Shown here: piece after piece, positions 6,893-24,231 of the stretch
Position numbering within the stretch: the first letter of the stretch is position 1
Layout of the letters: the number at the start of each line of letters is the position of its first letter
Virus record (IMG/VR): IMGVR_UViG_3300010885_036355
Coordinates: 1 to 24,952 of that record
From: a virus
DNA: 24,952 bases
Direction: 5' to 3' (one strand)
Notes under the pieces: generated by a model
Told to the model about the DNA's origin: nothing
Database searches by the model: none
What the model saw: only the letters and a program-made list of their open reading frames with translations
Translations under genes and position numbers: made by a program

Positions 6893-6898
6893 TCTCTT
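6893..6898 (-). promoter_or_regulatory. Ribosome binding site of the 599-aa fibre
   Basis: The coding strand reads AAGAGA, then 6 nt, then ATG at 6886. It is a partial match to AGGAGA and overlaps the stop codon of the upstream gene (6897-6899), as expected for coupled translation. Confidence 0.55.
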
Positions 6899-9197
6899 AG
6901 AATACTGGTGGACCTGAACGAATAATATAGTTCAGTGTTAAGTAGGGATTCATAATTGAAAAACTCTGTCCTAACTGTGGTGTTGTATAACCCAATACTC
7001 CGCCGCTACTTGGGAGATATTGCATTTGGCCCGGAGTTGTAGGGCCTCGGCCAAGGAAGGCTCCTTCTCCCGGATCAATTGATGAAGGACTAGCTGTGTC
7101 TAATCGTGTTGCATGATATTGATTACTTCCGCTAACTCCTGCATCATTTAGTGCTTTAAAGTTGTGTTCGTGTTGTGGAAGGTTAGTTGCGGTTAAAGTG
7201 TTTCTATAATCGCCGCTGGCTCCGCCTAAAGTAGAAGCTTGTGCATCATCAATTCTTGGAACTAATGTTGCCGAGCCTGTACCTGTGCCTACCGCAACAG
7301 CAGTAAATGTAGTACCGACTGCTGAAGAAATAGCACCTACCCAAGTACCGGGAATTGATTGATTAGTCCAGTTAGTTGAACCAACGCTGGCAATCGTGTA
7401 TCTACGACCTACAACAAATCTGCCTGCCGGAATAGCTTCACTACTAGGCAATCCGCCGCCAGCATCTGTAAATCCGCCACCTAATGGAACGGTGTTGTTG
7501 TTATCCATGTCGTGTTTACCTAGAGGAAAGCGACCACGCATGTCAGGCAATACAAAAGTCAACGAAGTTGGAATTTGTTGGCCTCTAAATGCTGTTCCGT
7601 AGATATTACCAATAACATTATATAATGCTAGATATTTGGAAATTTCTTGTTCGCTGCCGTCACACAATAGATAACCATAGGGTGCTGCAGATCCGGCAAA
7701 TGGCAAAATTGTACCAACTGGCACTCCAAGATCCCCAACAAACACATCTCTAGTTTCTTTTAATAGACCTTCGCCTGATCTAAAGACAAGTACATAATCA
7801 TCAGCTTTTGATACATTAGGACTAGGTTGAACTTTACTGGAAATAATTCCAGAAGTAATAACTGTGTCAAAGGTCTTTGTAGTACCGCCAACTTGTCCGT
7901 CAAATGTGATATTTGCAGAAGTTACATCTCCCTGCATTTTAAAAGTTGTTGGAAAACGCAGGTTGGTTGCAGTAGTGGCGTTACCAATAATATTACCTTC
8001 CAGTGCTCCAACTAAAGTATCTGCAATAAGAGTTTTAGTCCTAACAGTGTTCCATCGTCTTGTTAAACTTCCACTGTCGTATCTTTCTGTTTCTCTCGGC
8101 TCAATAGAAGTTGTAATTGTTTGGCCGTAAATATCAATGTTCTTGCCGATAAGAGCATTTTTAGTTACTGCTATACCGCCTGCGGTTCTAAAGCTACCGT
8201 TATTAAAGTTGGTGCTTTCAGCAATTCCAGTGAGAATTAAACTGCCGTCAGTTTTAATATTGCCGCTGACAACCAGTGCTTCGTCGGGTGCGGCTACATT
8301 AACACCCACTGTGTTGTTAACAATTTTTAGAACAGTATCTGGAACACCGTTTCGGTTAGTTTGAAGATCAATACTAGCACCTGCTGTGGCGTTGTATATC
8401 TTAGCGGCTGTTGAGGTTGAAGTTAAACTAAATGTCCCATCAATACCGATTGTAAGACCTGCATTATTTCTAATATTGAAATTTTGTTCAGTTGTATTAG
8501 TAGTATCTGATCTTAAAAACTTAGATGCGGCAACCGCGGTACCTGCAACATTTAGTGAATCTGCAGCAATTGCTGTTCCGTAAAATTTTGGTAGGAAGCC
8601 GCCTTCGCCAATATCAAGGCTAGTAATGTTGATACCCGTTTTAATTGCTGAGAAGCCGTTAATAGAATTTTTAGGAGTAAAGCTGTCTTTACTGATAACA
8701 ATAATTGGTTTGTCTTCTACATAAAAGGTTACAATAACTCTATCAAAGTTATCGCTATCAATAATAGATTCTACAACAGGACCAGATTGCAAACCTGTAG
8801 AAAAGTTAGGTCCGACTAAAATCCAACTTGATCCAGAAAATACATATAACTGTTGGTTAGTTGTGTCAACCCAGAGTTCGCCAACTCTAGCAGATTCTAC
8901 TGAAGGTTCGCTGGTACTTTTTTGAATATTACTGGCTGCTTTCCATTGGGTGTTATCCCAAATTTGTAAAATGCCTTCTAGAGAATTGTACCACAGTTGA
9001 CCTTCAACTGGGTTTGCTGGGGCTGACCCGCTGGCAAAGTTTTCTAACAATGCTAAAAAGTTTTCAGCAATAATTTGTCCGTAACCTGTAACATTGCGGC
9101 CTGGAAAGTCTAAACTTGTGTCTGCATTAGAAGTATTATCATAGACCGTAATCGGGGTCTTGTTTTCTCTGTCGGTAAAATTTATGATGTATGGCAT
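6897..9197 (-). CDS. Tail-fibre protein with phage tail-collar domain, 766 aa
   Basis: Residues 1-131 are the attachment module shared with the two downstream fibres (MPYIINFTDRENKTPI, FPGRNVTGYGQ, AENFLALLENFA, EGQLWYN, GELWVDTTNQQLYVFSGSSW). A beta-rich shaft follows, with SLTRRWNTVRTKTL and NATTATNLRFP segments also seen in the long fibre. A collar domain begins at about 491 (VPVGTILPFAGSAAPYGYLL, CDGSEQ) and runs through LPDMRGRFPLG. An HEH motif in LPQHEHNF lies near 675, reminiscent of the metal-binding HxH of T4 gp12, and the chain ends PYLTLNYIIRSGPPVF. A GRRYTIASVGSTNW insert of about 60 residues splits the collar region. An AGAGGT site 7 nt upstream supports ATG 9197. This is the best candidate for a gp12-like short-fibre function, though the attachment module makes it unlike T4 gp12 at the N-terminus. 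Confidence 0.88.
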   Translation of the reverse strand: MPYIINFTDRENKTPITVYDNTSNADTSLDFPGRNVTGYGQIIAENFLALLENFASGSAPANPVEGQLWYNSLEGILQIWDNTQWKAASNIQKSTSEPSVESARVGELWVDTTNQQLYVFSGSSWILVGPNFSTGLQSGPVVESIIDSDNFDRVIVTFYVEDKPIIVISKDSFTPKNSINGFSAIKTGINITSLDIGEGGFLPKFYGTAIAADSLNVAGTAVAASKFLRSDTTNTTEQNFNIRNNAGLTIGIDGTFSLTSTSTAAKIYNATAGASIDLQTNRNGVPDTVLKIVNNTVGVNVAAPDEALVVSGNIKTDGSLILTGIAESTNFNNGSFRTAGGIAVTKNALIGKNIDIYGQTITTSIEPRETERYDSGSLTRRWNTVRTKTLIADTLVGALEGNIIGNATTATNLRFPTTFKMQGDVTSANITFDGQVGGTTKTFDTVITSGIISSKVQPSPNVSKADDYVLVFRSGEGLLKETRDVFVGDLGVPVGTILPFAGSAAPYGYLLCDGSEQEISKYLALYNVIGNIYGTAFRGQQIPTSLTFVLPDMRGRFPLGKHDMDNNNTVPLGGGFTDAGGGLPSSEAIPAGRFVVGRRYTIASVGSTNWTNQSIPGTWVGAISSAVGTTFTAVAVGTGTGSATLVPRIDDAQASTLGGASGDYRNTLTATNLPQHEHNFKALNDAGVSGSNQYHATRLDTASPSSIDPGEGAFLGRGPTTPGQMQYLPSSGGVLGYTTPQLGQSFSIMNPYLTLNYIIRSGPPVF
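7250..7437 (-). other. Insert module within the collar region of the 766-aa fibre
   Basis: About residues 587-649 (AGRFVVGRRYTIASVGSTNW, then VGTTFTAVAVGTGTGSATLV) lie between the collar signature and the HxH segment. The RYTI-SVG-T...VGTTFTA-GTGTG-A pattern is one I associate with a small module found in many unrelated phage structural proteins. It looks like an exchangeable insertion. Its function is unknown; a surface-exposed beta module is the simplest guess. Confidence 0.65.
7480..7725 (-). other. Phage tail-collar domain
   Basis: Residues 491-572 of the 766-aa fibre show the collar signature: PVGTILPFAG, APYGYLLCDGSE, a YLALYNVIGNIYG helix-like stretch, LPDMRGRFPLG, then a glycine-rich turn. 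In known phages this domain occurs in short tail fibres and related receptor-binding proteins. Confidence 0.88.
8805..9197 (-). other. Shared N-terminal attachment module, copy in the 766-aa fibre
   Basis: Residues 1-131 carry the anchors GRNVTGYGQ, ENFLALLENFA, P-EGQLWYN, LQIWDNTQW, GELWVDTTNQQLY and LVGPNFS. It is the most diverged of the three copies, with an extra few residues near the start (TDRENKTPITVYD). Confidence 0.8.
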
Positions 9198-9873: not shown

Positions 9874-12800
9874 TTATTCAGGCAGTTCGGTGCTCTTTTG
9901 TTTTAGAAATTCAGCAATAGAACTTGTGTTTTTCAACAGAGTAATACCTGACGAAGCAGTTGTTTCTCCTCTATCATACCAAGTTTTACCAATTCTTCTA
10001 ATAACAGTGATGCGTGTTCCTGCAGGTACCGTAGATGTTAATCGAATATAATCGTTTACACCGTCTACACTGAATTCAGCTTCTAACACTTTATCAGCTT
10101 GTGGACTGGTAATATTAATTGCTTGATCGTAGACTGTTATGGGGTCTTTTCTTAAGCGTCGACCTGCGGCAAATACTTCAATTTGATCGCAAGGTTCGTA
10201 ACCTACAGGAATGGTCGTTCTTGTCCAATCAGCTCTGGTTGCTGCTTCTGGAACATAGTTTAACGGACCAACTAATAAGCTACTTCCGTCGCTGACAAAG
10301 TCTAGCCTTTCTTGGCTTTCGTTGTACGGAAGACTTTCAACTCTACCAACATCAACTACATTGCTGCCTATAGCATGAGTTTCTTTAATTGATGTGCCGT
10401 TAGTGCCTCTTCTCAGCTGAGATAATGTAGTAGCAGTTTTCTCAAAGTAGTCAATACGCTCACCGTTGATATAAACAGTTCCGGGAATATTTCTAGATTT
10501 AATTGGATCAAATAAATCAGCAGTGTCTGTAACATACATTACTTGATCGTAATAATTTAAATCTTGAGATAGTGTTACAGCTTTATCAATGCTGAATCGT
10601 TTGAAATGATAGATGTTTAACATGTCTTTAAACACCTCATATGCTAACGGAGCACGCCTTAGATAGTTGCCAAACTGTACAATTTTAATTTCGTCATTGA
10701 TTACTGATGTGGTTTTTAAGTAGACAACATTTCTAGGAATGGATACCTCATAGTCTTGATCTTGTGTTAGACGATGACCATTTTTATAGATCCAGATATA
10801 ACTGGCACTAACTGGTTCTCTTGCCAATTGATACTGAACTTTTCCTCCAGTATATTGATCGGATATGATATTCATACTTGGATATTCACTAAACCAAGTA
10901 ACTGTAATCTGATCCCCTTCTTGAAGTGTAGTTGTACTATCGTTTTCCACAAAACTAGTTCCGTTAAAAACAATGTTATTTCCTGTAAAGGTATATTGAC
11001 TTCTAATATCAACAATGACTTTGATCTCATCGTTGATTGCCAGTACTTCGGTGTCGACTGTTATTGTATTTTCATTTCCGTTATAGACATAATCAAGAAT
11101 ATTTCTTTTTAATTCATTGTTGACATAAACCTGAATATTGGTTTGTGTAGCAGTGTTAGGAGCTTCAATAGGATCTTGCCCTATTAAAATAACATTATTA
11201 GTTCCGTCATATACCGCAAATTCAGTATCAACACCTTTTAATTGGATACCATTAATTTCAACTAGGACGGCACCAGATGCACTAGCTCTTTCTAGATTTA
11301 CAAATTGATCTAAATCGTAACTCAATGTGCTTCCGTCAAATACTAGAGTTTGTTGATTAACTCGTACTAACGAGTTGGCTGACGAGTCAACATCCAAAAT
11401 GGCTCCTAGACAAACAATTTTTACAATCTGTCGGCGCTCTGGTTTGTTGGCAAACTGTATTAGTGTTTTGTTTGTGATATCCAATACTTCAGAACTATTG
11501 ATAGGAAGTGCGTCAACATCGACGCCATCAACCGTAACAACCACCGATGCTGTATCAGCAAAATTTGCTCTAGTTAAGAAAAATAGTGTATCGCCGTCGG
11601 CTTCAAATTCTTGATAGTCAAGTAGAGCTGCGCCGCCAACACCGATAGAAATAATTTCAATCACTGAATTGTGTATTGGAGCATTAGTAAACACCACTTC
11701 GTTGGTGTTATAATCTATGATATATTCTATGCTGCTGTCTGCTGAATTAATTTCGCATTTTACTTTATCAACATATACCATCACAGATGCACTATCAAGC
11801 ACAGTTAGTCCGATAGCAAAACGCTTGTCTCTTCCATTACTCTTTAATATACGAGACTGTAACGGTGTTGCACCAGTTTGAACTGTATGGAATACTTTGA
11901 TAGAAACACTGTCTATGACCTGTCCCGGAATATTTTCTTCTGGTGCAGGTATTTGATCTGGACTGATAAATTTGCTGCCATCGACTACAATGTCTTCTGA
12001 TGCTGTGCCTGTGGCTGTAATATATGCTCCGCTGACTGCACTCAACGAACCGCCAGTTAAATTTGTATCAATAATATTAATGTCAGTGATATTAACTGTA
12101 CCGTCACTATCCATTGGGCGGAATATCAGTGTATCTCCATTTTCTATCTGAACATACCGCTGAACATCAACGCTGTTTGTAGAGCCGTCGCCTATAACAG
12201 TAGGCATAACAGCTGATAAGTTTGTAACTCCAGCACCTCCAAAATTTGGATCGTCTATGCGGATGGTACGAGATTCTTCTATACCTTGATCGTAGACCAC
12301 CACTGGGGCTCCTGCGGAATCTAATGTATCAATACTTCTAGGAGATCCCAATCCGGTACGCTTTAGATAAACAGATAACTGTTGCCCTATTGTAGGAGTA
12401 AACGGTAATAGAATTGTTAATTCTTCCCAAACGGCCGGAAACTCAACTGGAGGTTTATCAGCATTGTCAACTACTGCACGATATTGCTTGTTTCCGTATT
12501 GAACTACAGAACCTGCTTTCCAAGTAATTGATCGACTGTCGACACCAGTTAATGTATACGGTTGAGTATCGACTACATAATAGAAGTCTGAGTTAGCTTC
12601 TACAGAATCCCAGGTGTCAGTAAACCACGGAAGGGCATCCCAACCACCCGAAACATCAAATGTAGTTCCTTGGATTTGCACTCCACCAAAGTCAATACCT
12701 GTCATTAGTTGGTTGATCTCTTTACCAATCATGCCTTTAGTTGGGCTGTAGTATTTGTTAATTCTATCAACTGCTTCTAATATTTCATCGGCTTTTTCGT

Positions 12801-15800
12801 AGACAATTATTATAACATCACCGGAAGTTGGCAAAGATAATAGTTTTAATTTACCTCTTAACAAACTATATTCGTCTGTGCTAGATTTATAAAATGTAAT
12901 TACATATGCACTATCTAATATAATTTCGTCATTGATGGTTACTGCAATTTTTGTCTTATCTCGTACTGGAGGATAACTTAATTCAAATATTGATGTAAAT
13001 CCATTAGCAACAAACTCTTGACTGTATGAGTACTCTTGGTAAGTGCCTTCTTTAGTAATTCTATCAAACTTAACTGTTAGATCAAAAGTTCTTGTTTTGC
13101 TATCACTAATGATCGCCACAGCTTTTGCAATGCTGGCAGATGTTCCGTTGCCTCCAACAATACTCACCGAAGCAGTAGTGTATCCGGTACCAGGTGTTAA
13201 TATTTTAATTCCGGATACAGAGCCGTTGGCAATATATGCCTGTGCTGTTGCTCCAGACCCATCTCCTGTAATAACAACTTTAGGAGCATCTTTGTAATCT
13301 GCTCCTGCATCAGAAACAACAATATCAGTGATAGAATAAGTGTGATTGTCTTTCCACCACTTGTAAGGATAGGTATCAATAACACTAGAATTTTCTAATA
13401 CTGGCAGTATTTGCCCTTCTCTAACATCATATGCTGGTGGCACATCAAAGTCTGTTATTGCTGCACCCTGACGATCTATATCAGTGTACCTGCTGGTGTA
13501 TTCCCTAATTGTTGTTCTAAATGGTTTTACTTCTTCTAGATAACTTTGGAAACTTGCAAGGTTGTCGTTCTTGTAATTTGTTTTTTGTTCTAAGTCGCCA
13601 ATGTTATGTATTGCATTTAAGAAACTGGTTTTAAAAGCCCAATCAACATATAACTGCTCCGAGAATATATAACGAATGCTGGCAAAGAACAATTTATTCC
13701 ACTCTGCTCTTAGATCATCAATAAAGATATTTTCCTTTAGTGCAGCAAATATAAATCTTAATTCTTGCGTTGGTTGATTGTCATAAGTGACTTCGTCATA
13801 CGAAGTTTGATAATCATATACTTTGACATTGTATATTGACTCATTAATTTTAATTGTGCCGTTTTTGCGACCAACTAAAATATAGTTGCCAAGAATATTT
13901 CCGCTGCCGTCTATAACTCTTTCAAGCAAGGCCCAGCCGCCGTTTGCGTATTCTTTGATCTTGATAACATCGCCTACTTTTATTTTAATAGTAGGTTCAA
14001 GGTATAGATCCAATATTTCTTTTACAATACGAGTTACTGAACTGTACCCGGTAGCGTACCAGTCAATGTAACTCCAATATTTTGTAGTGTCGTATGATTG
14101 TACTGTACTCTTAAAGAAACCTTCTCTAACACTGTCCCAGAAATAGATAGACCAGTAGTTGTTATAGGTTGTATCGTTTTTAACTAATACTGAGAAGTTT
14201 CTTACCGATACATCAGCAGTAGTATATTTTCTACCTTTCTGTACAACAGTAACAGAGGTAATTCTGCCTTGAAGGTCAAGAGTAACAGTGGCTTTGGCGC
14301 CGAGTCCGTCACCAACTATTTTAACAGGAGGTGTTGTACGATATCCAAAGCCTGCATCAATAATGTCAATAGTGTCTATTTCACCGTCAACAATATTTGC
14401 ACTTAATACTGCTGGACTAATTCTAATAATACCAACTTCTGATAATTCAACAAATGAGTCTACTGTTAAGTCGTAAAGGTTTAGTGTTGAATTAGGTATT
14501 GCTTCGATACGATTTAAATTTTCAAAATCAATTAGATCAGCAAACGGTCTTGTTAAAAGTATGTCGTTGCTTCTATCGATTGCAATTTTTAATGCTGTCC
14601 CGCGATCAACAAACATTGTTTGTATAGGTCTAAATGCTAGACCGTAACGCTGTTTAGGTAATAGTGTAGGATCAGGTACAGGATTGCCTGCCTGATTAAA
14701 TCCAACTAGGCTGTCTATCCATTTTTGTTCAAGCGGATTACTTGGCAGACTATCTGCAACACCTTCTGTTAGTAACTGGTATTCTGTATGTGTTGCATTA
14801 GGTCTTCGTTCTGAATTGTAGTATTCGATGTTTATTAAGGCAGAGTCGCCTGTAATAACCGAACTTAAATTGTAGGTTAAAAACTTGTCAGTGTCAATGA
14901 TAGCAAGTATTGGGGTACCATCGCTGGCAGGATTTTCAATTAAAGTTGCAACGCTGGCTGCAGAAATGTTTCTACCCGGTACACCTGTTGGTGTAATTGT
15001 TTTGCCTTTAACCCAGAAATAATACTTTGTTCCGTATGATAATCCTGTATTAGGATTTGTAAATCGCTTAATAGAATATGCTGTATTATTGTATAAAGGT
15101 TGTCCAGAAATTCCTGCAGACAATCCGTCTGCGGTGTCTGCCATTTTGGCCCAGTCAGTTGGACTCATTGAACTTTCAACCCACTCGCAGATGTCAATGC
15201 TGGCGCCCGGGGCCAGTTGATTCCAGTTGCCGGCTCTGTAGGCAAGATCCCCTTGCTCATAATGAGCCCATTTAGCTGTACTGATATTCCACCAAATTAC
15301 TCCAACATTTTTTTCAAACCAGGCTCGGTCAGCGTCAACTTCAACTTCGGTAGTACCGTTGGTATAACTGGCCGGATCGTATAGAGTTTTAAACTTAATT
15401 TCTTGTTCTGCACGACCAAGAATTTTTAATTTGTTTACATCAATAATATCTAGATCTGCAATTTTTAAATAATGCTCGTCATCATACAGAGCAACACTCT
15501 TTAACAGATTGATATTCACCATAGGCGATTCTTCTGCAACAACCGTAAAGCTGTCTTTGGTAACATCCTTTCTAAATATTCTAGTCATGCCCGAAGTAGC
15601 ATAGCTTGGAGAACCTGTTAAAATTACTGACGCTGTGCTGTCTAACGAATATCCAAATCCTTCATTATTTGTTATATCGGCTTCTAATTTTTCAGAAAGT
15701 ATATAAGTTTGATCTTTAAGTTCAAATACATAAACCTGTCCAGGATAACCTTGATCTTCGGAGAATGTTGTTCTATTGCCGTCGAATCGTGTTCCTAAAG

Positions 15801-18800
15801 CTAGATCAAATCTAGTCGGTAATTTATAAGGAGTATTTTTTGCCCCAACTACCACACGCTCGCCGCGTTCACTGATAGAAACACTAAAACCAAATAACTC
15901 ATTGTTATAAATTTCATAGCTTTGAAGTTTTTGTTTTAGACGATATTCTGTATCGTCGTATTTGAAAATATAAACACTACCTTGATTTTGTAAATTGCTA
16001 TCTGCTTGCGGGCTAGAAACTACTATAACATTTCCGGAGTTATCAATGTCTATTGAGAATCCAAACAAATCCCCAGAATTGATTATCTCTGTTGGGGCCA
16101 AGTCGTTGACCGCAGGCAAACTACCTGCATTGATTGTCTGGATTAGACTATAGAAGCCGTAGGCATTCATTTTATAGATATAGATTTTTCCAGATGTTGC
16201 AGTTGATACTGCTGCAACTAATGTCCACGGAGATCCGTTATCTGGATCTGCACCTATTGAAGTTGCTGTACTCAATCTGCGATAGACACCCGATTGTTTA
16301 ACTACATCGTTGATTTTATATGTTTGGTAACTATTCCAAACACCTCTATAATTAGTAAAATATTGTCCATCACTAGTTGGTGATCCTATTACTAGAGTCA
16401 TACCGTCACGACTCATAGTCATACTAGTTCCAAACTTGTCTCCCTCTTTGACTAATTCAGCAACTTGATTAGATAACAGCGAACCAACTGTAGGATCTGA
16501 GCTATCGTCTTCAAGAGCAATATTTGTGGGCAATGAACTTTGCGTTGATATAGGATCTAATCTTGTCCACTGATTTGAGTTAACAGAGATAGTACTACCA
16601 TCGCCTGTTTGGTCTTCTAGTGACTGCCACAGTGCATTGTTATACCATACAATGGCGCCGGCTTCGTAGAATCTAGCGCCGGAGTTATCGTAAACACCTT
16701 TAAAGTTTTGATTCTCAATTAGTTGCCATTCTTTAGCAATATTAGGATATTTTCTAATTATAGAATTACCCATATTCAATGTTGCCGATGAATAATAATA
16801 CAAGATACTGCTGGTGTTTTCTGTTACGGTAATTTGAACTTTTCTAGTCGTAGCAGTAGCAAACCCTGCAATATACTGTGCCTGGGTAACTGTACGATTG
16901 TCAATGAGATAAGTTACTCCAGTAGTGTACAATGTGCCACCACCTAACACTCCGTTGATGTTGTCGTTACTAAAATTTAAAGGGTGCTTGTTGGTTACTG
17001 TACCATCTACAGGGTTAGGATAATAAACATTGCTAAGATCAGTTTGATCAAATATATATGTGTTTCCAACTGTTAGTGATAGATTAGGTCTATACTGCTC
17101 ATTGATGTAATATTTGTAACCAGCTTCCATTCCCTGAGGTGGCGCCACTGTTATTTTATAGGTAACTGTTTCTGAAGTATTGGTAGTTAGAGGAGCATAC
17201 TTGTATAGATATACTCGGCCTTTATTATTTTCTGCACCTGGTGCAGAAATAGCCATATAATAATTTCCAGAATCAACTCCAATTGTTATTTTAGAACCAA
17301 ACTGTTCATTGGTATTTTGTCTTGGACTAACAAAACTATATCTTTCAACCCAACTTTGGCCGCTCCACTCATAAAGAGATACTGCACCTTGATACTGATA
17401 TCCGGTACTTGATCCTTGTTGATTAGCCGTGATTACTAGCGCCGGCTCCCAGTCTTCCATGGTGGTATCAATTCTAGCAAAGGTACTATCTGCTCCAACA
17501 TGGGTACTATCGGCGCCGGTATAGTCCTGGGCATAGATGTCAACTTTAGCCCTCCATAGTTTTCCTTTGTGTAAAACTATGTTTCCTTGAAAATAATCTA
17601 AATCGCTGTTATAAATTCCTTGATAATCTGACCTTACTGCGGTTGCTCTTGGACTACCAATTGCTAGCCATTTACCGTCTGGGCTAACAGCCAAACTTTC
17701 ACCAAATACATTATAGGCTGCTGCACTGATACTATTAGGTCTTTCAAATGTCTGGAAAGGCTTAAGACCGTCTGATCGTTCGAGATATGAAACTACTCGA
17801 TTACTTTCTGGCATTGAGGACACTATTTGTGTCAATATATCAATGTATAATACTGCTGTTCCGTTTCCTTTAGGACTAGTTACTCCGTATTCTGAAATTT
17901 CAGTTGCTGAAAATATTTTTTGTTTTTCAACAACTTCCCAATTGTTTGATTCGTTAGTGTCTATCCAAAATTTAGCTCCACTAGTCAATGATGCTGCGAT
18001 AGCAAGGTCAACTGATTGATATGTAGGAAAACGAGCAGAAGTAAAACATTCTAAATTAATAATATCATCTGCTTGCCACTTGGGTTCCTTAGCATCTTTA
18101 CTAATTTGAATCACAACAGTTCTTCTATCTGGTACTTCTGTAATTTTATAGAATCCTTCTAGATTCTCAATATTTCTAACGCCAAAGATATCACCGACAG
18201 ACAGTCCGTGTGATCTTCCTAGTGAGATTTCAACTCTTGTTTTAACCACAGTAATATTGGTGATTAATAACAGTTTAGAAATATTGTATCTTAACACAGT
18301 CCATGAAGTGTTGTAGAAAGTAATCCATACATGAGAATTTTCTTCAAATTCTGAAATATTAAGAGTTAAAATATCATCATAATTCTTAACAGCAAAATCA
18401 ACATCAAAAGAATTTACATATCCTGCTGTTCTTGGAGTTAATTTATATTTCTTAACTGGATTAATGTTAGCTGTAAACGGAATTGGTGCAATTGTAAAAT
18501 TCTTTTCTGGCACACGCATATACAGATCTAATACATCAGTACTAGCATCTGTAGGGGCAATAATTACAGGTTGGGGATTGATTTTAAAATCATTTTTTAA
18601 AATTCTAAATTCAGTTTCATTAAACTGTTCGGTACCACCTAATCGACCCACACGGAACGCCCATTCTTCATTGAGTTCAATACTGCCTGTATTGGTTCTA
18701 CTTAATTTGTCAAAAACTTTGGTAATGGCATTTGCTGTACCTTTTTCACGGATAAATCCTTGATATAATTTAAACTGGCTTACTGCATCTTCAGCCATGT

Positions 18801-21800
18801 TCTGTAGATACTCTCGTGTTTGATATCCAATAACATGTCGACTTAGATCTCGTTGGCTGCTACCTAGTCCGTCGGCATCAACATCATAATAATCCTCAAA
18901 TTGATTAATTCTATAATCAAAGTTTGCCACTAGGCCTTTTGTTGGAGTAGTATCTAATTTTTCCCATATTGTGGTATCGAACAATTCAGCGCCTTGCTGA
19001 TTTCGTTTGCTGACCCAGTTGTAAGACTTATAAGAAACAATGTCACCTAATCTGTAATCAGTGTAAGGACTCCACACCTGGATGTTTACATTGTCAAACA
19101 AGAATCCGGGACTGGTATAATCGCCGTCCCAGTCAACTGTACGGAAACCACGACTCTTAATGCGTTCTTGACGATATCCGGTGGTCTTGTCATAGATAAC
19201 ATCGTTGAACACTGTGCGATCATCAAAGACTGTGATATGTTCTTTAAGAACAAAATATACTTTAATAAAGTAAATACCTTCATTGGTATTAACTGTACTA
19301 ACTTTCACTGACTGGAAGTCTCTGTTAACATTTAAAAATATAGGTAATAGCGGAGCTCCGTCACTCTTAAATATTTGATAATCATAGAAACTGTCAAACA
19401 AACTGTCAGCAACTCCTAACGGAATTTCCATGTCAACTTGGCCGGCGCTTGGACTTAGTGTTAATAAAGATCCTACTGCCCAATTATGTTTGGTCCAGAA
19501 CAAGAATTCTTTACAGCTAGTTCCCCAGTTATAGGCCACTTGATTTTCTGCATCATATCGATCAAAGCTAAATCCTTGCGTTTTCAAATAGGCCTGATAG
19601 CCTAACAAGAAATCTACTACTCCCTGAATGGTAGTAATAACCGTTCCGTAGTACAATTGAGTTGGTTTTAATTGGCTAAATGTTTTTCTAAAATACGCTT
19701 CGACGCCGCCAACTACTGGTAGTTTAGGTAAGGTCTTCCAAAGGGTTTTATCAAACACACCGGTACTTGTGTGTGACTTTAAGGCACGATAAAAAATATT
19801 TTGAGTTCTTACTATGTCGCCATTACTATAGACTTTGTCTGCGGCCCAGTCTAAGAAAGATGCACTTGTGCCCCCAACCGATGTTAATGGATCGCTACTA
19901 CTAGCAATGGGTTTAAAATAGTTAAAGTATGGCTGTTGGTTGTCGTAGCCTTTGATTTTCCAACCTTCGGCTAACTTTTCAATTAATACTCCGCTGTAAG
20001 CGATGCCAATCATAGGAACGCCTACATTGAAAATTACATCATAATTTTCATTTGGCACATAAATGCTGCTAGAAGTGGCACTTGGATTTTTGCTATCAAG
20101 CAAATATTTTTGTTCTGTTTGGTCAACAAAGCCGGACATCCTAGTAGAAATTTTAACATCTAAATTGTTTAGTCGTGTTAACAATACTTGCGGATCTAGA
20201 TTTTTACTACGAACATAACTAGAAACAAATGTTACCAATCCAGACAGTTGTGTTCCACCTACTACAGGAACTAATAAATTAGAAATCTTAGAAAACACTC
20301 CAGAGTCTGCAAATACTGTTTGGCCAAGTTGGTTAACTGACATTCTAGATCTATCAAAACTGTCTGTGATAAATTCAAAAGGTTTTAACAGACATAGTGC
20401 AACCATTACCGAAAACGGCCATTCACTGCTGGATCTCCATGCGGCTTCTACTGGGCTAACATCTCCTGGTCTGTAATCACCCTGATTATTAATTAAAGTA
20501 AAATCGTTAGCTATTCCAGAATCCAATGGGCTCAATAGTCGACCGTCACCATCTGTTGGGATGTGGTCAAGTATGCTAGATCTAGCATATCTACTATGAG
20601 TACCTGCTCTTGTTCCTTGACGAATAACTCCATCGCGAATATCTTCCCAAAGAATTAAGTTACCTCTAGTGTAAGGTGCCGGACCGTATTCGCTTTCCCA
20701 CCATGTAGGTTTTTCGCTGAAGCCCAACATTTCCCAAGGACAAATATGTGGCCGATCAGTGTCATAGAACCATTGATACACGCCTCTCCAATACCCCGGC
20801 AAGCTCTGTAGCTTGGTCGGATCTGTCATGTTGCTGTAAGTGTAGGTAAAACTATTTTGAGTGTCAAAATACTGATCATTGTTGGTGTAATCGATGTCAG
20901 TGTTAGATACCCAGCGTAAAAAATCCTGTATAACAATAGCATCTAATTCTGGTTTAGTGTACAGTGCATTGCCGTAATAGCCGCCAAATACTGTATCAAT
21001 ATTAAAAATGTTTTCGTTATATTCTTGCTTAATGTTATTGTAAATTCGTAATTCTAGTTCTAAAATTGCATCGTCTCTATAGTCATCATAGGCCGCAGTA
21101 ATGCTTCCGTCGTGTCCTTGTATTACTAAACGCGGAGTTACAAATGTATCATCAAGATAAATTCTTGGCAGATATTTTTTATACAGGCCTAACTTGGTAG
21201 GCGTTGAAGGAATATAATTAAAGGCGGTAGATGTATATTCTCTAATTACAATTTGATCGCCTTCGGTTAGAGTTAATGAAAGTCTAACAAATCCAAATGT
21301 ACCGTCAAATACATAATCTGTTCCGTGAATTAATTGCTCACCATTACGATAAACATAAACTGCACGACGACTAAGTTCTGTAAGATTAAAAGTTTGGCTC
21401 AATGCAAAAACTTTTATTCCTTCGTCTTCTACTAGATATACTATATCTGCATGGGCTCCGTTACCAATCATATCGCTGTCTGCAAACGGATCTGATGAAT
21501 CTTTTGTCACCGTCATTGCTGACATAACTTCGTCAACAAAATCTACAATATTATCCAGCGGGCTAATTTCGGCAATTCTTTTTAAGAATTCGTTTTTAAA
21601 ATTGCTGTAGGCTCTTAGCGAATGTTGAATAGATTTTACAATGTTAATATTTTTATCGCAAAGCAACGATACTGCCATTGGTGCAATACCGGAGTGTTTT
21701 AAGAAACGCATACAACGATTTTGATAGCCGTCAATATTTCTTAAGTTACTAGTTCCGGGATATACTCCTAAAAACTGTGTTTCAATTTCCATCGCAGACG

Positions 21801-24231
21801 ATAAATGATCAATCGCCTGACCCAGTGTAAAATCTGTTAGGTTATCATTTAACGGATTTTTTTCTAATCCGTGTGGAATTTGATAATAGCCTTGGTCCGG
21901 ATCAATGTCAATATACATTTTAATCGATACTACATCGTTTACCGCAAATGTGTTGGCAAATGTAAATATTCCGTTTTCTCTAGTGTAACTGTCAAAGTGT
22001 CTTTGTCCGTTTAGATAAAAGATCACTGTAGACGGGAGACTACTAAATGCTATCCAATCAACTGTTGCTAGAGTAATTTTATTTGTTGCTTCAGTAACAA
22101 CTACACTATCTAAAATTGGCTGCTGATAATCGCTGTCTGATTTAGTCCATCCGTTGGCAAACTCGTCTAAGGGATTAAATCTATAAAATCCGGTGTTTAG
22201 ATTTTTTGTTATTGTTTCTTGATTAACAGAATAACTAAAACTATCTCTATCAAGATTGTATGTGAATGAAATATCGCCGACATTATCTATGTTTAAGTAA
22301 TCAAGGCTAAATCCCAATTCGCTGTCAGCAATGCTATTGCCAACTTTATAACTCACAATAGGAGATCCTGCAAATGTTGACGAAGGATAAGTTGCTGTTT
22401 CTGAAAAACTAATGCCGTTGTTATCGAACAGATCAAACAAGGGCAACTGATTGGCTTTTGTTTTTTCTTGGCTAGGTACCCAATTAACACCAGTAAAGTG
22501 ATACATCAATCCTTTATTATTGTTGCCACTTTTAACTAGTACACCTTCACCTAGGATAGGATCCGAATCAACTGTTGCTCTTAATGTAATCTGTCTAACA
22601 TTATTGTGTGTAATAAAGTTAACTTGATAAATTTTGTTATTAGCTAATTGGTCTGTGTCTGCAACAAATAATACTCGAGCGCCTTGGTATAAAAATTCTC
22701 CGTCAACGCTATAACCTTGACTTCCTTCAATTGTAGAAAAAATATCAGTTGTAAATGTATCAATAAAATCTACAGGAGTTTTAGCAATACTACCGTGATT
22801 GAATAGTTGAAGGTTTGGACGGAATTCAATAATAGGACGCTTGGCTCTAAAACTGTCACCTGCTTCAAAATCTGTGCCATTTAGTTTGTGTGCTTGTTCT
22901 AGAGTTGATTTGTGGAACCAACGATTATATCTACTCCATGGATTAGCATCAATACTAGCCCTACATACTATAATGTAATCTTTTTCTCCGGGATATGAAG
23001 TGGCGTCATCAAACGGGTCTGTATCAAATCCTGTGTTATCAAAAATTACTTCCGGAATTTGGCTTGTAATAATAGGTACTGTTAAATCTGAGAATTTAAT
23101 TAGGGTTATTTCTCTCCCAACTTTTTCCACTAACCAATTATCTTTGACATACTTAGTTGGAGTAACTTTTCCACCAAATCGTACAATTAGGCCGTTAGTA
23201 AACTCAACTCCGTTACTGCTGGTATAATTTTGTTTGCCTATAATTTCTTTATCGATATTAATACTGGTATTTTCTTCGATGTCTTGGATTAAGAAACGAC
23301 CAAATCTATCAGGATTTATTGCACTCTGATAGTAAAGAATATCTGGGGCGTCAAAGGGAACTTCAAATGTCACGGTGCCGTTAACAGCTCCGTTGTTAGT
23401 TACTCCGTTGAAGTAATCAAACTTTGATGTTTGTACATTCTCGTCTACAATTTCCCACTCTGGGCCTTCAACAATTGTGCCATCAATACTGGCTGTAACA
23501 TAGGTCAGTGCTCTCCACAATTTACCATCATAGACTGCAAGTTGATTAGGAATATAAGGAAGGAAAGGATTGTATTTTAAACTGCCTGTATCAAAAGCTG
23601 TTCTAATATAAAAACCTTCTCTAGGACTGTTAACTGCAAAATTATAGGTCTGCCCTCTATACAAGGTTAATGTAGGATTGTTTGTTGAACCGTCTGGATA
23701 AAAAATCCATGTTGATGTTGTACCTTGACGAACTCTATAGGTACTAGTAATTGCATCGCCTTGTCCAAGAACTTTAACACTTGGAGGACCGTTTGGAACC
23801 CAATAGTATTCACGGAAGTTTACAAACTTGTCCCATTCGATGGGGGGATTCCAGCTGTAATGATCTTGGCTGGTAATTAAATCGTCGCGCTCGTTGAGGT
23901 TATTAAAAAATCTAAGTTGATTTTTAAAGTCAATGTAGTCATAGAAATTTTCAATGTTTCCTCGATCATCCGATAGTACTACTCCTGGTTCTAATTGATA
24001 TCTACTGCGTAGTGTGTTGTCGCTATCGAGATAAATGTCAGAGCCTTTGTAGGTCTTGCCATATCTACGACCAACATATCCTACAGTTTTTTGTAGAACA
24101 CCCGGCTGGACCAAAGGGTCAATGACTCCGGCCATAAATTTACTGTTAGTCTCAGTCTTGAAAACCTGTGGCAGTAAATCTACTGTCCTGCGAATTGGTA
24201 ACCCGCTTGCCGGGAAAATTTCATTTGCCAT
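9874..24231 (-). CDS. Giant mosaic virion structural protein, 4785 aa (about 0.5 MDa)
   Basis: One uninterrupted frame follows directly after the gp6-like gene, in the place where T4 has gp7 and other wedge genes. The N-terminus has FPASGLPIRRTVDLLP and PIEWDKFVNFREYYWVPNGP (about 131-150), a segment I associate with giant proteins of marine T4-like phages. Later come GYWRGVYQWFYD, PWEMLGFSEKPTWW and YGPAPYT (about 1134-1197). An FG-GAP-like propeller occupies about 2170-2890. Paired GxGY/GDGxGA modules are at about 3284-3340 and 3634-3707, and GWDALPWFTDTWDSVE follows. The C-terminal thousand residues are mostly repeated NG...DY beta modules plus NIPGTVYINGERIDY and LRRGTNGTS (about 4557-4627). 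Seven short modules resemble chitin-binding folds. No transmembrane segment or catalytic motif was recognised. A virion and baseplate-periphery role is inferred from position and family. Only a weak AGGG at 12 nt precedes ATG 24231. Confidence 0.85.
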   Translation of the reverse strand: MANEIFPASGLPIRRTVDLLPQVFKTETNSKFMAGVIDPLVQPGVLQKTVGYVGRRYGKTYKGSDIYLDSDNTLRSRYQLEPGVVLSDDRGNIENFYDYIDFKNQLRFFNNLNERDDLITSQDHYSWNPPIEWDKFVNFREYYWVPNGPPSVKVLGQGDAITSTYRVRQGTTSTWIFYPDGSTNNPTLTLYRGQTYNFAVNSPREGFYIRTAFDTGSLKYNPFLPYIPNQLAVYDGKLWRALTYVTASIDGTIVEGPEWEIVDENVQTSKFDYFNGVTNNGAVNGTVTFEVPFDAPDILYYQSAINPDRFGRFLIQDIEENTSINIDKEIIGKQNYTSSNGVEFTNGLIVRFGGKVTPTKYVKDNWLVEKVGREITLIKFSDLTVPIITSQIPEVIFDNTGFDTDPFDDATSYPGEKDYIIVCRASIDANPWSRYNRWFHKSTLEQAHKLNGTDFEAGDSFRAKRPIIEFRPNLQLFNHGSIAKTPVDFIDTFTTDIFSTIEGSQGYSVDGEFLYQGARVLFVADTDQLANNKIYQVNFITHNNVRQITLRATVDSDPILGEGVLVKSGNNNKGLMYHFTGVNWVPSQEKTKANQLPLFDLFDNNGISFSETATYPSSTFAGSPIVSYKVGNSIADSELGFSLDYLNIDNVGDISFTYNLDRDSFSYSVNQETITKNLNTGFYRFNPLDEFANGWTKSDSDYQQPILDSVVVTEATNKITLATVDWIAFSSLPSTVIFYLNGQRHFDSYTRENGIFTFANTFAVNDVVSIKMYIDIDPDQGYYQIPHGLEKNPLNDNLTDFTLGQAIDHLSSAMEIETQFLGVYPGTSNLRNIDGYQNRCMRFLKHSGIAPMAVSLLCDKNINIVKSIQHSLRAYSNFKNEFLKRIAEISPLDNIVDFVDEVMSAMTVTKDSSDPFADSDMIGNGAHADIVYLVEDEGIKVFALSQTFNLTELSRRAVYVYRNGEQLIHGTDYVFDGTFGFVRLSLTLTEGDQIVIREYTSTAFNYIPSTPTKLGLYKKYLPRIYLDDTFVTPRLVIQGHDGSITAAYDDYRDDAILELELRIYNNIKQEYNENIFNIDTVFGGYYGNALYTKPELDAIVIQDFLRWVSNTDIDYTNNDQYFDTQNSFTYTYSNMTDPTKLQSLPGYWRGVYQWFYDTDRPHICPWEMLGFSEKPTWWESEYGPAPYTRGNLILWEDIRDGVIRQGTRAGTHSRYARSSILDHIPTDGDGRLLSPLDSGIANDFTLINNQGDYRPGDVSPVEAAWRSSSEWPFSVMVALCLLKPFEFITDSFDRSRMSVNQLGQTVFADSGVFSKISNLLVPVVGGTQLSGLVTFVSSYVRSKNLDPQVLLTRLNNLDVKISTRMSGFVDQTEQKYLLDSKNPSATSSSIYVPNENYDVIFNVGVPMIGIAYSGVLIEKLAEGWKIKGYDNQQPYFNYFKPIASSSDPLTSVGGTSASFLDWAADKVYSNGDIVRTQNIFYRALKSHTSTGVFDKTLWKTLPKLPVVGGVEAYFRKTFSQLKPTQLYYGTVITTIQGVVDFLLGYQAYLKTQGFSFDRYDAENQVAYNWGTSCKEFLFWTKHNWAVGSLLTLSPSAGQVDMEIPLGVADSLFDSFYDYQIFKSDGAPLLPIFLNVNRDFQSVKVSTVNTNEGIYFIKVYFVLKEHITVFDDRTVFNDVIYDKTTGYRQERIKSRGFRTVDWDGDYTSPGFLFDNVNIQVWSPYTDYRLGDIVSYKSYNWVSKRNQQGAELFDTTIWEKLDTTPTKGLVANFDYRINQFEDYYDVDADGLGSSQRDLSRHVIGYQTREYLQNMAEDAVSQFKLYQGFIREKGTANAITKVFDKLSRTNTGSIELNEEWAFRVGRLGGTEQFNETEFRILKNDFKINPQPVIIAPTDASTDVLDLYMRVPEKNFTIAPIPFTANINPVKKYKLTPRTAGYVNSFDVDFAVKNYDDILTLNISEFEENSHVWITFYNTSWTVLRYNISKLLLITNITVVKTRVEISLGRSHGLSVGDIFGVRNIENLEGFYKITEVPDRRTVVIQISKDAKEPKWQADDIINLECFTSARFPTYQSVDLAIAASLTSGAKFWIDTNESNNWEVVEKQKIFSATEISEYGVTSPKGNGTAVLYIDILTQIVSSMPESNRVVSYLERSDGLKPFQTFERPNSISAAAYNVFGESLAVSPDGKWLAIGSPRATAVRSDYQGIYNSDLDYFQGNIVLHKGKLWRAKVDIYAQDYTGADSTHVGADSTFARIDTTMEDWEPALVITANQQGSSTGYQYQGAVSLYEWSGQSWVERYSFVSPRQNTNEQFGSKITIGVDSGNYYMAISAPGAENNKGRVYLYKYAPLTTNTSETVTYKITVAPPQGMEAGYKYYINEQYRPNLSLTVGNTYIFDQTDLSNVYYPNPVDGTVTNKHPLNFSNDNINGVLGGGTLYTTGVTYLIDNRTVTQAQYIAGFATATTRKVQITVTENTSSILYYYSSATLNMGNSIIRKYPNIAKEWQLIENQNFKGVYDNSGARFYEAGAIVWYNNALWQSLEDQTGDGSTISVNSNQWTRLDPISTQSSLPTNIALEDDSSDPTVGSLLSNQVAELVKEGDKFGTSMTMSRDGMTLVIGSPTSDGQYFTNYRGVWNSYQTYKINDVVKQSGVYRRLSTATSIGADPDNGSPWTLVAAVSTATSGKIYIYKMNAYGFYSLIQTINAGSLPAVNDLAPTEIINSGDLFGFSIDIDNSGNVIVVSSPQADSNLQNQGSVYIFKYDDTEYRLKQKLQSYEIYNNELFGFSVSISERGERVVVGAKNTPYKLPTRFDLALGTRFDGNRTTFSEDQGYPGQVYVFELKDQTYILSEKLEADITNNEGFGYSLDSTASVILTGSPSYATSGMTRIFRKDVTKDSFTVVAEESPMVNINLLKSVALYDDEHYLKIADLDIIDVNKLKILGRAEQEIKFKTLYDPASYTNGTTEVEVDADRAWFEKNVGVIWWNISTAKWAHYEQGDLAYRAGNWNQLAPGASIDICEWVESSMSPTDWAKMADTADGLSAGISGQPLYNNTAYSIKRFTNPNTGLSYGTKYYFWVKGKTITPTGVPGRNISAASVATLIENPASDGTPILAIIDTDKFLTYNLSSVITGDSALINIEYYNSERRPNATHTEYQLLTEGVADSLPSNPLEQKWIDSLVGFNQAGNPVPDPTLLPKQRYGLAFRPIQTMFVDRGTALKIAIDRSNDILLTRPFADLIDFENLNRIEAIPNSTLNLYDLTVDSFVELSEVGIIRISPAVLSANIVDGEIDTIDIIDAGFGYRTTPPVKIVGDGLGAKATVTLDLQGRITSVTVVQKGRKYTTADVSVRNFSVLVKNDTTYNNYWSIYFWDSVREGFFKSTVQSYDTTKYWSYIDWYATGYSSVTRIVKEILDLYLEPTIKIKVGDVIKIKEYANGGWALLERVIDGSGNILGNYILVGRKNGTIKINESIYNVKVYDYQTSYDEVTYDNQPTQELRFIFAALKENIFIDDLRAEWNKLFFASIRYIFSEQLYVDWAFKTSFLNAIHNIGDLEQKTNYKNDNLASFQSYLEEVKPFRTTIREYTSRYTDIDRQGAAITDFDVPPAYDVREGQILPVLENSSVIDTYPYKWWKDNHTYSITDIVVSDAGADYKDAPKVVITGDGSGATAQAYIANGSVSGIKILTPGTGYTTASVSIVGGNGTSASIAKAVAIISDSKTRTFDLTVKFDRITKEGTYQEYSYSQEFVANGFTSIFELSYPPVRDKTKIAVTINDEIILDSAYVITFYKSSTDEYSLLRGKLKLLSLPTSGDVIIIVYEKADEILEAVDRINKYYSPTKGMIGKEINQLMTGIDFGGVQIQGTTFDVSGGWDALPWFTDTWDSVEANSDFYYVVDTQPYTLTGVDSRSITWKAGSVVQYGNKQYRAVVDNADKPPVEFPAVWEELTILLPFTPTIGQQLSVYLKRTGLGSPRSIDTLDSAGAPVVVYDQGIEESRTIRIDDPNFGGAGVTNLSAVMPTVIGDGSTNSVDVQRYVQIENGDTLIFRPMDSDGTVNITDINIIDTNLTGGSLSAVSGAYITATGTASEDIVVDGSKFISPDQIPAPEENIPGQVIDSVSIKVFHTVQTGATPLQSRILKSNGRDKRFAIGLTVLDSASVMVYVDKVKCEINSADSSIEYIIDYNTNEVVFTNAPIHNSVIEIISIGVGGAALLDYQEFEADGDTLFFLTRANFADTASVVVTVDGVDVDALPINSSEVLDITNKTLIQFANKPERRQIVKIVCLGAILDVDSSANSLVRVNQQTLVFDGSTLSYDLDQFVNLERASASGAVLVEINGIQLKGVDTEFAVYDGTNNVILIGQDPIEAPNTATQTNIQVYVNNELKRNILDYVYNGNENTITVDTEVLAINDEIKVIVDIRSQYTFTGNNIVFNGTSFVENDSTTTLQEGDQITVTWFSEYPSMNIISDQYTGGKVQYQLAREPVSASYIWIYKNGHRLTQDQDYEVSIPRNVVYLKTTSVINDEIKIVQFGNYLRRAPLAYEVFKDMLNIYHFKRFSIDKAVTLSQDLNYYDQVMYVTDTADLFDPIKSRNIPGTVYINGERIDYFEKTATTLSQLRRGTNGTSIKETHAIGSNVVDVGRVESLPYNESQERLDFVSDGSSLLVGPLNYVPEAATRADWTRTTIPVGYEPCDQIEVFAAGRRLRKDPITVYDQAINITSPQADKVLEAEFSVDGVNDYIRLTSTVPAGTRITVIRRIGKTWYDRGETTASSGITLLKNTSSIAEFLKQKSTELPE
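10115..11795 (-). repeat. Cluster of NG...DY beta modules at the C-terminus of the giant protein
   Basis: Between about residues 4145 and 4705 a unit of roughly 45 residues recurs: an alternating strand ending in V-V-G or Y-NG, a charged L turn, a DY or equivalent, then a strand ending in DEIKI or similar. Examples are VLVEINGIQLKGVDTEF, IQVYVNNELKRNILDYVYNG, YIWIYKNGHRLTQDQDYEV and IEVFAAGRRLRKD. Further copies lie upstream at about 730, 955 and 3757. The array suggests a string of small beta domains. Confidence 0.65.
12415..12540 (-). other. Carbohydrate-binding-like module 7
   Basis: About residues 3897-3939: ITWKAGSVVQYGNKQYRAVV followed by PAVWEELTIL. The YGNKQYRA core resembles the GKLWRA of modules 1 and 4, and a closing W is present. 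It follows the GWDALPWFTDTWDSVE segment. Confidence 0.5.
13110..13330 (-). repeat. GxGY / GDGxGA module, second copy in the giant protein
   Basis: About residues 3634-3707: VSDAGADYKDAPKVVITGDG, SGATAQAYI, then GIKILTPGTGYTTASVSIVG and GNGTSASIAKA. It holds two successive half-repeats and is more complete than the first copy. The pattern is common in phage structural proteins; its function is unknown. Confidence 0.75.
14210..14380 (-). repeat. GxGY / GDGxGA module, first copy in the giant protein
   Basis: About residues 3284-3340: IDAGFGYRTTPPVKIVGDGL, GAKATVTLD, then VTVVQKGRKYTTADVSV. The two half-motifs (GxGY...P-V-I and G-G-A-A) form a compact beta unit that recurs about 340 residues later. 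Confidence 0.7.
16216..16355 (-). other. Carbohydrate-binding-like module 6, between propeller blades 3 and 4
   Basis: About residues 2625-2672: YRGVWNSYQTYKINDVVKQS, GVYRRLSTATSIG, then SPWTLVA. An ND replaces the usual GD at the turn; the closing W is present. Confidence 0.55.
16558..16710 (-). other. Carbohydrate-binding-like module 5, between propeller blades 2 and 3
   Basis: About residues 2507-2558: GVYDNSGARFYEAGAIVWYN, NALWQSLEDQTGD, then NQWTRLDP. The aromatic spacing matches modules 2 to 4. Confidence 0.5.
17435..17620 (-). other. Carbohydrate-binding-like module 4, between propeller blades 1 and 2
   Basis: About residues 2204-2265: YNSDLDYFQGNIVLHKGKLW, RAKVDIYAQD, then MEDWEPALV. 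The GN-I-V turn, the LWRA core and the closing W are kept. It also contains an immediate repeat, GADSTHVGADST. Confidence 0.5.
18945..19085 (-). other. Carbohydrate-binding-like (ChtBD3-type) module 3
   Basis: About residues 1715-1762: VWSPYTDYRLGDIVSYKSYN, W-VSKRNQQG, then FDTTIWEKLD. The layout is the same as module 2, with the GDIV turn and closing W conserved. Confidence 0.65.
19728..19860 (-). other. Carbohydrate-binding-like (ChtBD3-type) module 2
   Basis: About residues 1457-1501: W-A-DKVYSNGDIVRTQNIFYRA, then HTSTGVFDKTLWKTL. It matches the W-x-x-Y-x-x-GD-V...Y-A...W arrangement of small chitin-binding type-3 domains closely, including the GD turn and the paired aromatics. It is the clearest of the copies. 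Confidence 0.65.
23450..23550 (-). other. Carbohydrate-binding-like (ChtBD3-type) module 1
   Basis: About residues 227-261: LAVYDGKLWRALTYV followed by GPEWEIVDE. The pattern is a strand, an x-GKLWRA core and a closing W about 25 residues later. It is the shortest and least certain copy. Confidence 0.4.

Follow-up and report, generated by a model that had tools for sequence, protein, structure and literature searches.

Propeller domain insertion is known from the integrin alpha subunit, in which the alpha-I domain, a vWA insert, sits between blades 2 and 3 of an FG-GAP propeller (PMC3192720 and PMC12422189). According to the available portions of these articles, this subunit uses a single insertion loop, and several of its blades carry a DxDxDG calcium motif in the A-B loops. 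A propeller within a phage-tail-like machine is likewise known from eCIS, where beta-propeller lectins are part of the tail fibres; domain insertion into the propeller is not described in the available part of that text (PMC12923769). Among the chitin-binding modules of CBM5/CBM12, CjCBM5 has a core formed by Y265 and W299, and its binding surface is the almost fully conserved Y282-W283 pair (PMC8449059, available portion). Among the papers listed on an FG-GAP, propeller or cupredoxin domain in phage baseplates, surveyed as titles and the beginnings of abstracts, none describes an array of such inserts, and with subscription journals thinly covered this absence is weak evidence. Within the same limited coverage, several exchangeable inserts in one phage propeller protein were not found in print.

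The locus described here lies in a viral sequence of 24,952 nucleotides (IMG/VR record IMGVR_UViG_3300010885_036355), the whole of which is referred to as the window. An unbroken open reading frame on the minus strand encodes a baseplate-region virion protein of 4785 aa, which matches, with E 0, the virion structural protein family phrog_10938. Jumbo myophages, e.g. PA5oct, Atu_ph07 and Rak2-like phages, have proteins that match residues 15-1917 (60 records) and the part beyond residue 2890 (58 records), with identities of roughly 23-40%, and the PA5oct homologue, gp355, carries an ESI-MS/MS mark in its record. Upstream, the window includes the end of a gene that matches the baseplate wedge subunit family phrog_10646 (gp6-like, E 7.7e-73). 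In T4-type phages it is the gene of gp7, the wedge core subunit, that directly follows gp6, a comparison of place only. PA5oct gp355 and Atu_ph07 gp180, homologous in their N- and C-terminal parts, occupy the same place beside a gene annotated as baseplate wedge subunit. Downstream of the giant gene lie the gene of a 221-aa protein, which matches phrog_11259 (unknown function), and three fibre-like genes, among whose matches are families of tail and tail fibre proteins. These fibre-like proteins, encoded successively at 467-5068, 5087-6886 and 6897-9197 (all minus strand), have by eye a similar N-terminal region of ~90 residues, which phrog_8309 matches in each of them. The last, of 766 aa, also contains a GRRYTIASVGSTNW-type stretch that by eye resembles a module near module 5 in L139, L161 and other relatives (L numbers denote loci). 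The whole window gave no Rfam family at the gathering score and no tRNA.

The region in question, 16216-17620 on the minus strand, corresponds to residues 2204-2672 of the giant protein. A profile scan of IMG/VR returned 130 relatives, of which 80 were analysed, and none of these 80 had a stop inside the segment. Six cut-off loci (L112, L116, L141, L152, L159 and L177) were left out, and the remaining 74 full-length relatives together with the window were grouped into 41 clusters with one representative each, the window's own cluster included. The cut-off loci L009 and L014 were left out of one alignment of relatives, in which L053 was kept; L053 was left out of another step. Four of 34 representatives (L002, L005, L028 and L038) were left out of the alignment for the larger structural model, hereafter model 1 (AlphaFold2, residues 2095-2945, 31 sequences).

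Pfam FG-GAP_2 matches the propeller segment with E 5.8e-21, and FG-GAP_2 as well as CBM_5_12 match in all 31 aligned members (E <= 0.1). The FG motifs, six rather than seven in number, start at residues 2176, 2311, 2600, 2723, 2780 and 2859. Following spacings of 135 and 289 residues, the last three intervals are 123, 57 and 79, so that the later blades are close together at the C-terminal end, as the original prediction had noticed for the insert-free blades 4 to 6. In the FG-GAP/integrin-type fold, seven four-stranded blades form a closed disc and each blade carries a cage motif; a loose pattern for the first part of that motif was found at 3 of the 6 FG sites. Model 1 has a mean pLDDT of 68 and a pTM of 0.71; its blade strands mostly reach pLDDT 74-95 in 10-residue blocks, with ~60 at blade 2 strand D and 42-44 in the blade 5 B-C loop. 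With VIA-align, the best match is the integrin alpha-L headpiece (Z 38.3, rmsd 3.0, 360 residues, model positions 11-798), and the best 50 matches listed are all integrin alpha headpieces (Z 34.2-38.3, rmsd 2.7-3.9, 350-381 residues). Foldseek also places an integrin, alpha-M/beta-2, at the top (E 4.3e-10), albeit with a low TM-score of 0.33 on the query, and non-integrin propellers (IFT-A, SSU processome) rank high below it. This fold match indicates a disc of probably seven blades and not the six first proposed, the seventh probably being shared between both ends of the segment in the model; its candidate closing strands at the C-terminus (residues 2912-2928) have pLDDT 46-55.

Sequence searches for the propeller gave little beyond the close family. 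A PDB sequence profile search with the whole alignment returned weak matches only (best E 0.026), and residues 2130-2930 matched nothing among the INPHARED phages by tblastn at E 1e-5. When the shorter relative L036 served as query and the limit was relaxed to E 0.01, two records of Vibrio phage nt-1 were the sole matches, and weak ones (E 4e-3), the match being to ORF127. In BFVD, the propeller model does have structure matches among FG-GAP-type proteins of phages and of giant viruses, one of them a separate protein of Atu_ph07 ('Hemagglutinin protein'), but judged from lengths and names these viral proteins differ from the giant baseplate-region protein of the window. Unlike integrins, the window segment has no DxDxDG-like calcium loop in any blade A-B loop, and calcium-binding integrin-type blades were dropped as a candidate for that reason. 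The pattern occurs three times in the 41 representatives (L117, L122 and L154), on reading within CBM-like modules.

Table 1. Features of the giant gene and its propeller region, in window coordinates, from the protein's N- to C-terminus below the first two rows
Feature	Position	Strand	Basis and remarks
Baseplate-region virion protein, 4785 aa, homologue of PA5oct gp355	9874..24231	-	Open frame; phrog_10938; PA5oct ESI-MS/MS mark
Integrin-type beta-propeller with inserts, probable, residues 2135-2928	15448..17829	-	FG-GAP_2; VIA Z 38.3 to integrin alpha-L headpiece
N-terminal strands 2145-2163, probably closing blade 7	17743..17799	-	DSSP strands 51-58 and 61-69 of model
Blade 1 strands A-B (FGESLAV...WLAIGSP)	17650..17709	-	FG motif, DSSP strand order
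Module 4, CBM5/12-like, blade 1 B-C loop	17422..17631	-	Model, profile matches; filled 41/41
Blade 1 strands C-D	17329..17388	-	DSSP strand order in model
Blade 2 strands A-B-C	17191..17301	-	DSSP strand order in model
Cupredoxin-fold domain (modelled), blade 2 C-D hairpin, residues 2350-2495	16747..17184	-	Model 2; rusticyanin/laccase/nitrite reductase fold; empty in 22/41
Blade 2 strand D	16720..16734	-	DSSP strand order in model
Module 5, CBM5/12-like, blade 2-3 linker	16540..16716	-	Both models, profile matches; filled 41/41
Blade 3 strands A-B	16381..16434	-	DSSP strand order in model
Module 6, CBM5/12-like, blade 3 B-C loop	16207..16359	-	Pfam, model; filled 41/41
Blade 3 strands C-D	16129..16191	-	DSSP strand order in model
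Blade 4, without insert	15925..16065	-	FG motif, DSSP strand order
Blade 5, B-C loop of 31 residues	15688..15894	-	FG motif, model, loop table
Blade 6, B-C loop insert of 101-105 residues in 3/41 representatives	15529..15657	-	FG motif, model, loop table
C-terminal strands 2912-2928, probably completing blade 7, low confidence	15448..15498	-	Model strands

The strand order in model 1, as assigned by DSSP, places module 5 between blade 2 strand D and blade 3 strand A, where the original prediction had put it. Modules 4 and 6, expected between blades 1-2 and 3-4, instead lie within blades 1 and 3, in each case between strands B and C. As predicted, all three appear as short strands of their own, separate from the flanking blade strands, with pLDDT 65-91 for module 4 (46-48 in one loop), 56-73 for module 5 and 74-86 for module 6; in the second model described below, module 5 reaches 62-83. 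On the window's own segment the CBM_5_12 score is 26.1 bits, just below the cut-off of 26.2. The modules are alike by hhalign (probability 98.8, 95.0 and 93.3%), the two comparisons with module 6 aligning only 38 and 30 columns, in the first half. Their sequence relatives in the PDB include parts of chitinases and deacetylases, the profile of module 4 finding the chitinase chain 2rts (E 1.1e-4) and deacetylases that include one chitin oligosaccharide deacetylase. Further relatives are the contractile-injection-system component Cis13/All3316 and the 587-aa spike gp124 of phage Milano. The latter is matched at residues 30-58, and the available part of the Milano paper describes residues 1-175 as the tail-binding module.

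Antiparallel propeller blades have their B-C and D-A loops on the same face, opposite the A-B and C-D loops. Modules 4-6, modelled in B-C and D-A loops, should thus all project from one face of the disc. The site of module 5 is apparently the insertion point of the integrin alpha-I domain, provided that the blades are counted alike, as suggested by the end-to-end alignment.

A fourth insert had been overlooked. Model 2 (residues 2336-2570, 36 sequences; mean pLDDT 84) shows the C-D hairpin of blade 2 filled by a stretch that folds as its own domain, mostly at pLDDT >90, over which model 1 gave 24-54. The modelled fold is a cupredoxin beta-sandwich. Its sole Foldseek match under 0.001 is rusticyanin (E 9.3e-4), and VIA finds laccase Ssl1 (Z 9.0, rmsd 2.9, 108 aligned) and a copper nitrite reductase (Z 9.0, rmsd 2.5, 100 aligned), which are modest Z values. 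The cupredoxin profile had no match up to E 1 against PDB sequences and Pfam gave none on four insert segments, so the assignment rests on the model. By the same propeller topology, this domain would lie on the face opposite to modules 4-6. The domain also explains why the propeller segment matches phrog_708 (baseplate wedge subunit). Type 1 copper is bound by His, Cys, His and Met. Read by eye, the first His and the Met are retained in the window copy, whose C-terminal loop lacks the Cys and the second His, and a functional copper site was dropped because the ligands are incomplete; the relative L010 (7687-8124) keeps all four ligand letters. The cupredoxin domain family also occurs in other phage proteins, with 21 of its 49 loci being copies from the propeller family. 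Among 20 matches listed for the other phage proteins, a Cys..His..Met C-terminal loop with an upstream His was seen in 8 (L077, L078, L079, L080, L084, L096, L098 and L100) and Cys..His..Gln in 3 (L086, L090 and L094).

Comparison of the 41 representatives reveals two kinds of insertion site. Those of modules 4, 5 and 6 are filled throughout, with lengths of 72-93, 86-168 and 56-124 aa, respectively, and no representative without these modules was seen. The case for their insertion therefore comes from the model and from analogy with other loops. The presence/absence expected for the three modules among homologues was found only at other sites. The C-D loop of blade 2 is empty (3 aa) in 22 of the 41 and filled by four kinds of domain in the other 19: the cupredoxin domain in 10, a 193-aa domain in 3, a 109-113-aa domain in 4 and an 88-aa domain in 2. 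The A-B loop of the same blade has 6 aa in 36 representatives and 401-424 aa in 5; in L179-L183 this insert, which splits blade 2, contains GTGY-type repeats and what by eye resembles a further CBM-like module. The blade 6 B-C loop comprises 6-20 aa in 38 and 101-105 aa in 3, and the 3-4 linker (D3-A4) 13-24 aa in 40 and 85 aa in one. The 2-3 linker of 7 representatives holds an extra module, which on visual reading follows module 5 in L139, L145 and L164 and interrupts it in L151, L161, L171 and L178. Inserts nested in inserts are seen also inside module 6 in L178, and inside the cupredoxin domain in L132 (the contig of L022). Eleven loops have constant length in all 41: A1-B1, C1-D1, D1-A2, A3-B3, A4-B4, B4-C4, D4-A5, A5-B5, C5-D5, A6-B6 and D6-A7. 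Domain insertion into propeller loops is thus well supported, in that the blade strands are kept while loops other than those of modules 4-6 gain or lose whole domains; together with the separate module strands in the model, this bears out the earlier view of insertion rather than linear addition.

Mapped onto a tree built from columns free of inserts, the blade 2 hairpin with its five states requires 5 changes, compared with a mean of 17.4 after shuffling. Three kinds of insert are each explained by a single change with starred support; the 109-113-aa kind needs two, its second origin depending on L160, which is flagged as a long branch. The tree is unrooted and the direction of change is not fixed; the empty hairpin is spread across it.

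The core and the inserts were further compared in terms of dN and dS with three relatives, L003, L008 and L012. In all three comparisons dN was lower than dS in the propeller core and in every insert, with dN of 0.015-0.14 outside module 6 and 0.26-0.32 within it. Relative to L003, dN/dS was ~0.04 for module 4 and for the cupredoxin domain, ~0.01 for module 5, 0.06 for the core and 0.35 for module 6, rough values given that synonymous sites are near saturation (pS 0.47-0.75). Module 5 shows 84-100% identity in all pairs of the window and its near relatives. Module 6 of the window has 59-69% identity to six near relatives, whose own pairwise identities are 73-88%, and it is, on these sequences, the fastest-changing and less constrained part.

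The core of the CBM5/12 fold is retained in all three modules: the core Tyr in 40, 41 and 41 of the 41 representatives (modules 4, 5 and 6) and the core Trp in all 41 for each. Conversely, the exposed pair of CBM5, Y-W or W-W, is absent. Both positions are aromatic in none of the 41 copies of any module, and any aromatic residue in these columns is found in 0, 3 and 2 of 41. CBM12 binds through a single Trp. A rough stand-in for that residue, another Trp located 3-18 residues ahead of the last one, was found in none of the 41 copies of module 4 or of module 6; module 5 gave 6 raw hits of 41, in which, on reading, an earlier Trp was probably taken as the last. With the chitin-binding pair absent, the modules are CBM5/12-like in fold (core Tyr/Trp, Pfam match) and lack the known binding site, as judged against the available text of PMC8449059. 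Modules 4-6 may still have another, non-canonical glycan site.

The original prediction had proposed a multivalent glycan-reading array, in which the three CBM-like modules jointly bind a host polysaccharide from one face. The CBM_5_12 matches in every aligned member, the chitinase and deacetylase relatives of module 4 and the probable placement on one face speak for such a reader, but the exposed CBM5 aromatic pair is lacking in all 3 x 41 modules and the CBM12-like Trp is equally missing, module 5's few hits being doubtful. The proposal is not borne out by these residues, and we now regard it as unlikely. A linear string of small domains that form no closed propeller would account for the low pLDDT of the closing strands and the six rather than seven FG motifs; it is hardly compatible with Z values of 34-38 to seven-bladed integrin propellers over model positions 11 to about 800. 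A domain string without a disc was dropped on this integrin fold match, and we consider it very improbable.

A further alternative is that the inserts are purely structural spacers or assembly contacts in an enlarged baseplate, without host contact, which come and go with little effect. Such a role would fit the relatives of the modules in Cis13/All3316 and, as far as the available text of the Milano paper goes, in the tail-binding part of gp124. It would also fit the cultured kin, where the propeller is dispensable: neither the homologue in PA5oct nor that in Atu_ph07 matches Pfam FG-GAP. The stretch that separates the conserved blocks spans 286 aa in PA5oct, where the window protein has 972, and 1470 aa in Atu_ph07, where the window protein has 952. 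On these sequences, the propeller is a block present in the window lineage and not seen in PA5oct or Atu_ph07. In Atu_ph07 gp180 (L055), residues ~1706-3177, ~1470 aa, stand in the propeller's place, and several parts of them match GTGY-type stretches of the window protein. Against little effect stands the constraint on the inserts, with the low dN/dS relative to L003 of module 4, the cupredoxin domain and, above all, module 5. We judge the purely structural role rather unlikely.

We favour an integrin-type FG-GAP propeller, probably seven-bladed, built into a giant, jumbo-type myophage protein encoded beside baseplate genes, the propeller acting as a rigid scaffold for inserted domains. From one face, the three modules of CBM5/12 fold would project through B-C and D-A loops; the cupredoxin domain would leave the opposite face through the C-D hairpin. 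Modules 4-6 are fixed, and the other insertion sites are exchanged between related phages. The computation shows the match in fold, the points of insertion, the presence or absence of inserts among relatives, the lack of the chitin-binding pair and the constraint on the protein sequence; the position at the baseplate rim, the faces and the role in docking or adhesion are inferred. One disc at the rim could thereby present several docking/adhesion surfaces. On the constant face, the CBM-like modules would probably dock proteins or fibres or make weak, non-canonical contacts with a surface; contacts to the host or a partner would be tuned by the variable sites. The structural reading, a propeller with inserts, is held with high confidence. 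The functional reading, a docking/adhesion scaffold, has close to, or slightly less than, an even chance of being correct, and for the integrin-type propeller as a domain-insertion scaffold for docking/adhesion the balance is about even.

Compared with the integrin alpha subunit, as described in the available portions of the articles above, the phage protein shares the FG-GAP propeller fold and, if blades are counted alike, a whole domain between blades 2 and 3; it differs in using several loops and in the CBM-like and cupredoxin folds of its inserts. A more far-reaching possibility, which we put forward tentatively and with some doubt, is an evolvable receptor platform: whole domains would be exchanged in at least five loops (blade 2 A-B and C-D, the 2-3 and 3-4 linkers and blade 6 B-C), even as nested inserts, while the disc and the three CBM-like modules stay fixed. 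If true, this would constitute a phage parallel, of separate origin, to the acquisition of the integrin alpha-I domain. Across this phage family, one beta-propeller takes different folded domains at several defined loops, so that its natural variants allow the rules of domain insertion to be read. Should the inserts set host contacts, giant phages could alter adhesion by whole-domain swaps, their fibres unchanged. In addition, 'chitin-binding' labels on phage tail proteins may denote a fold and not a function.
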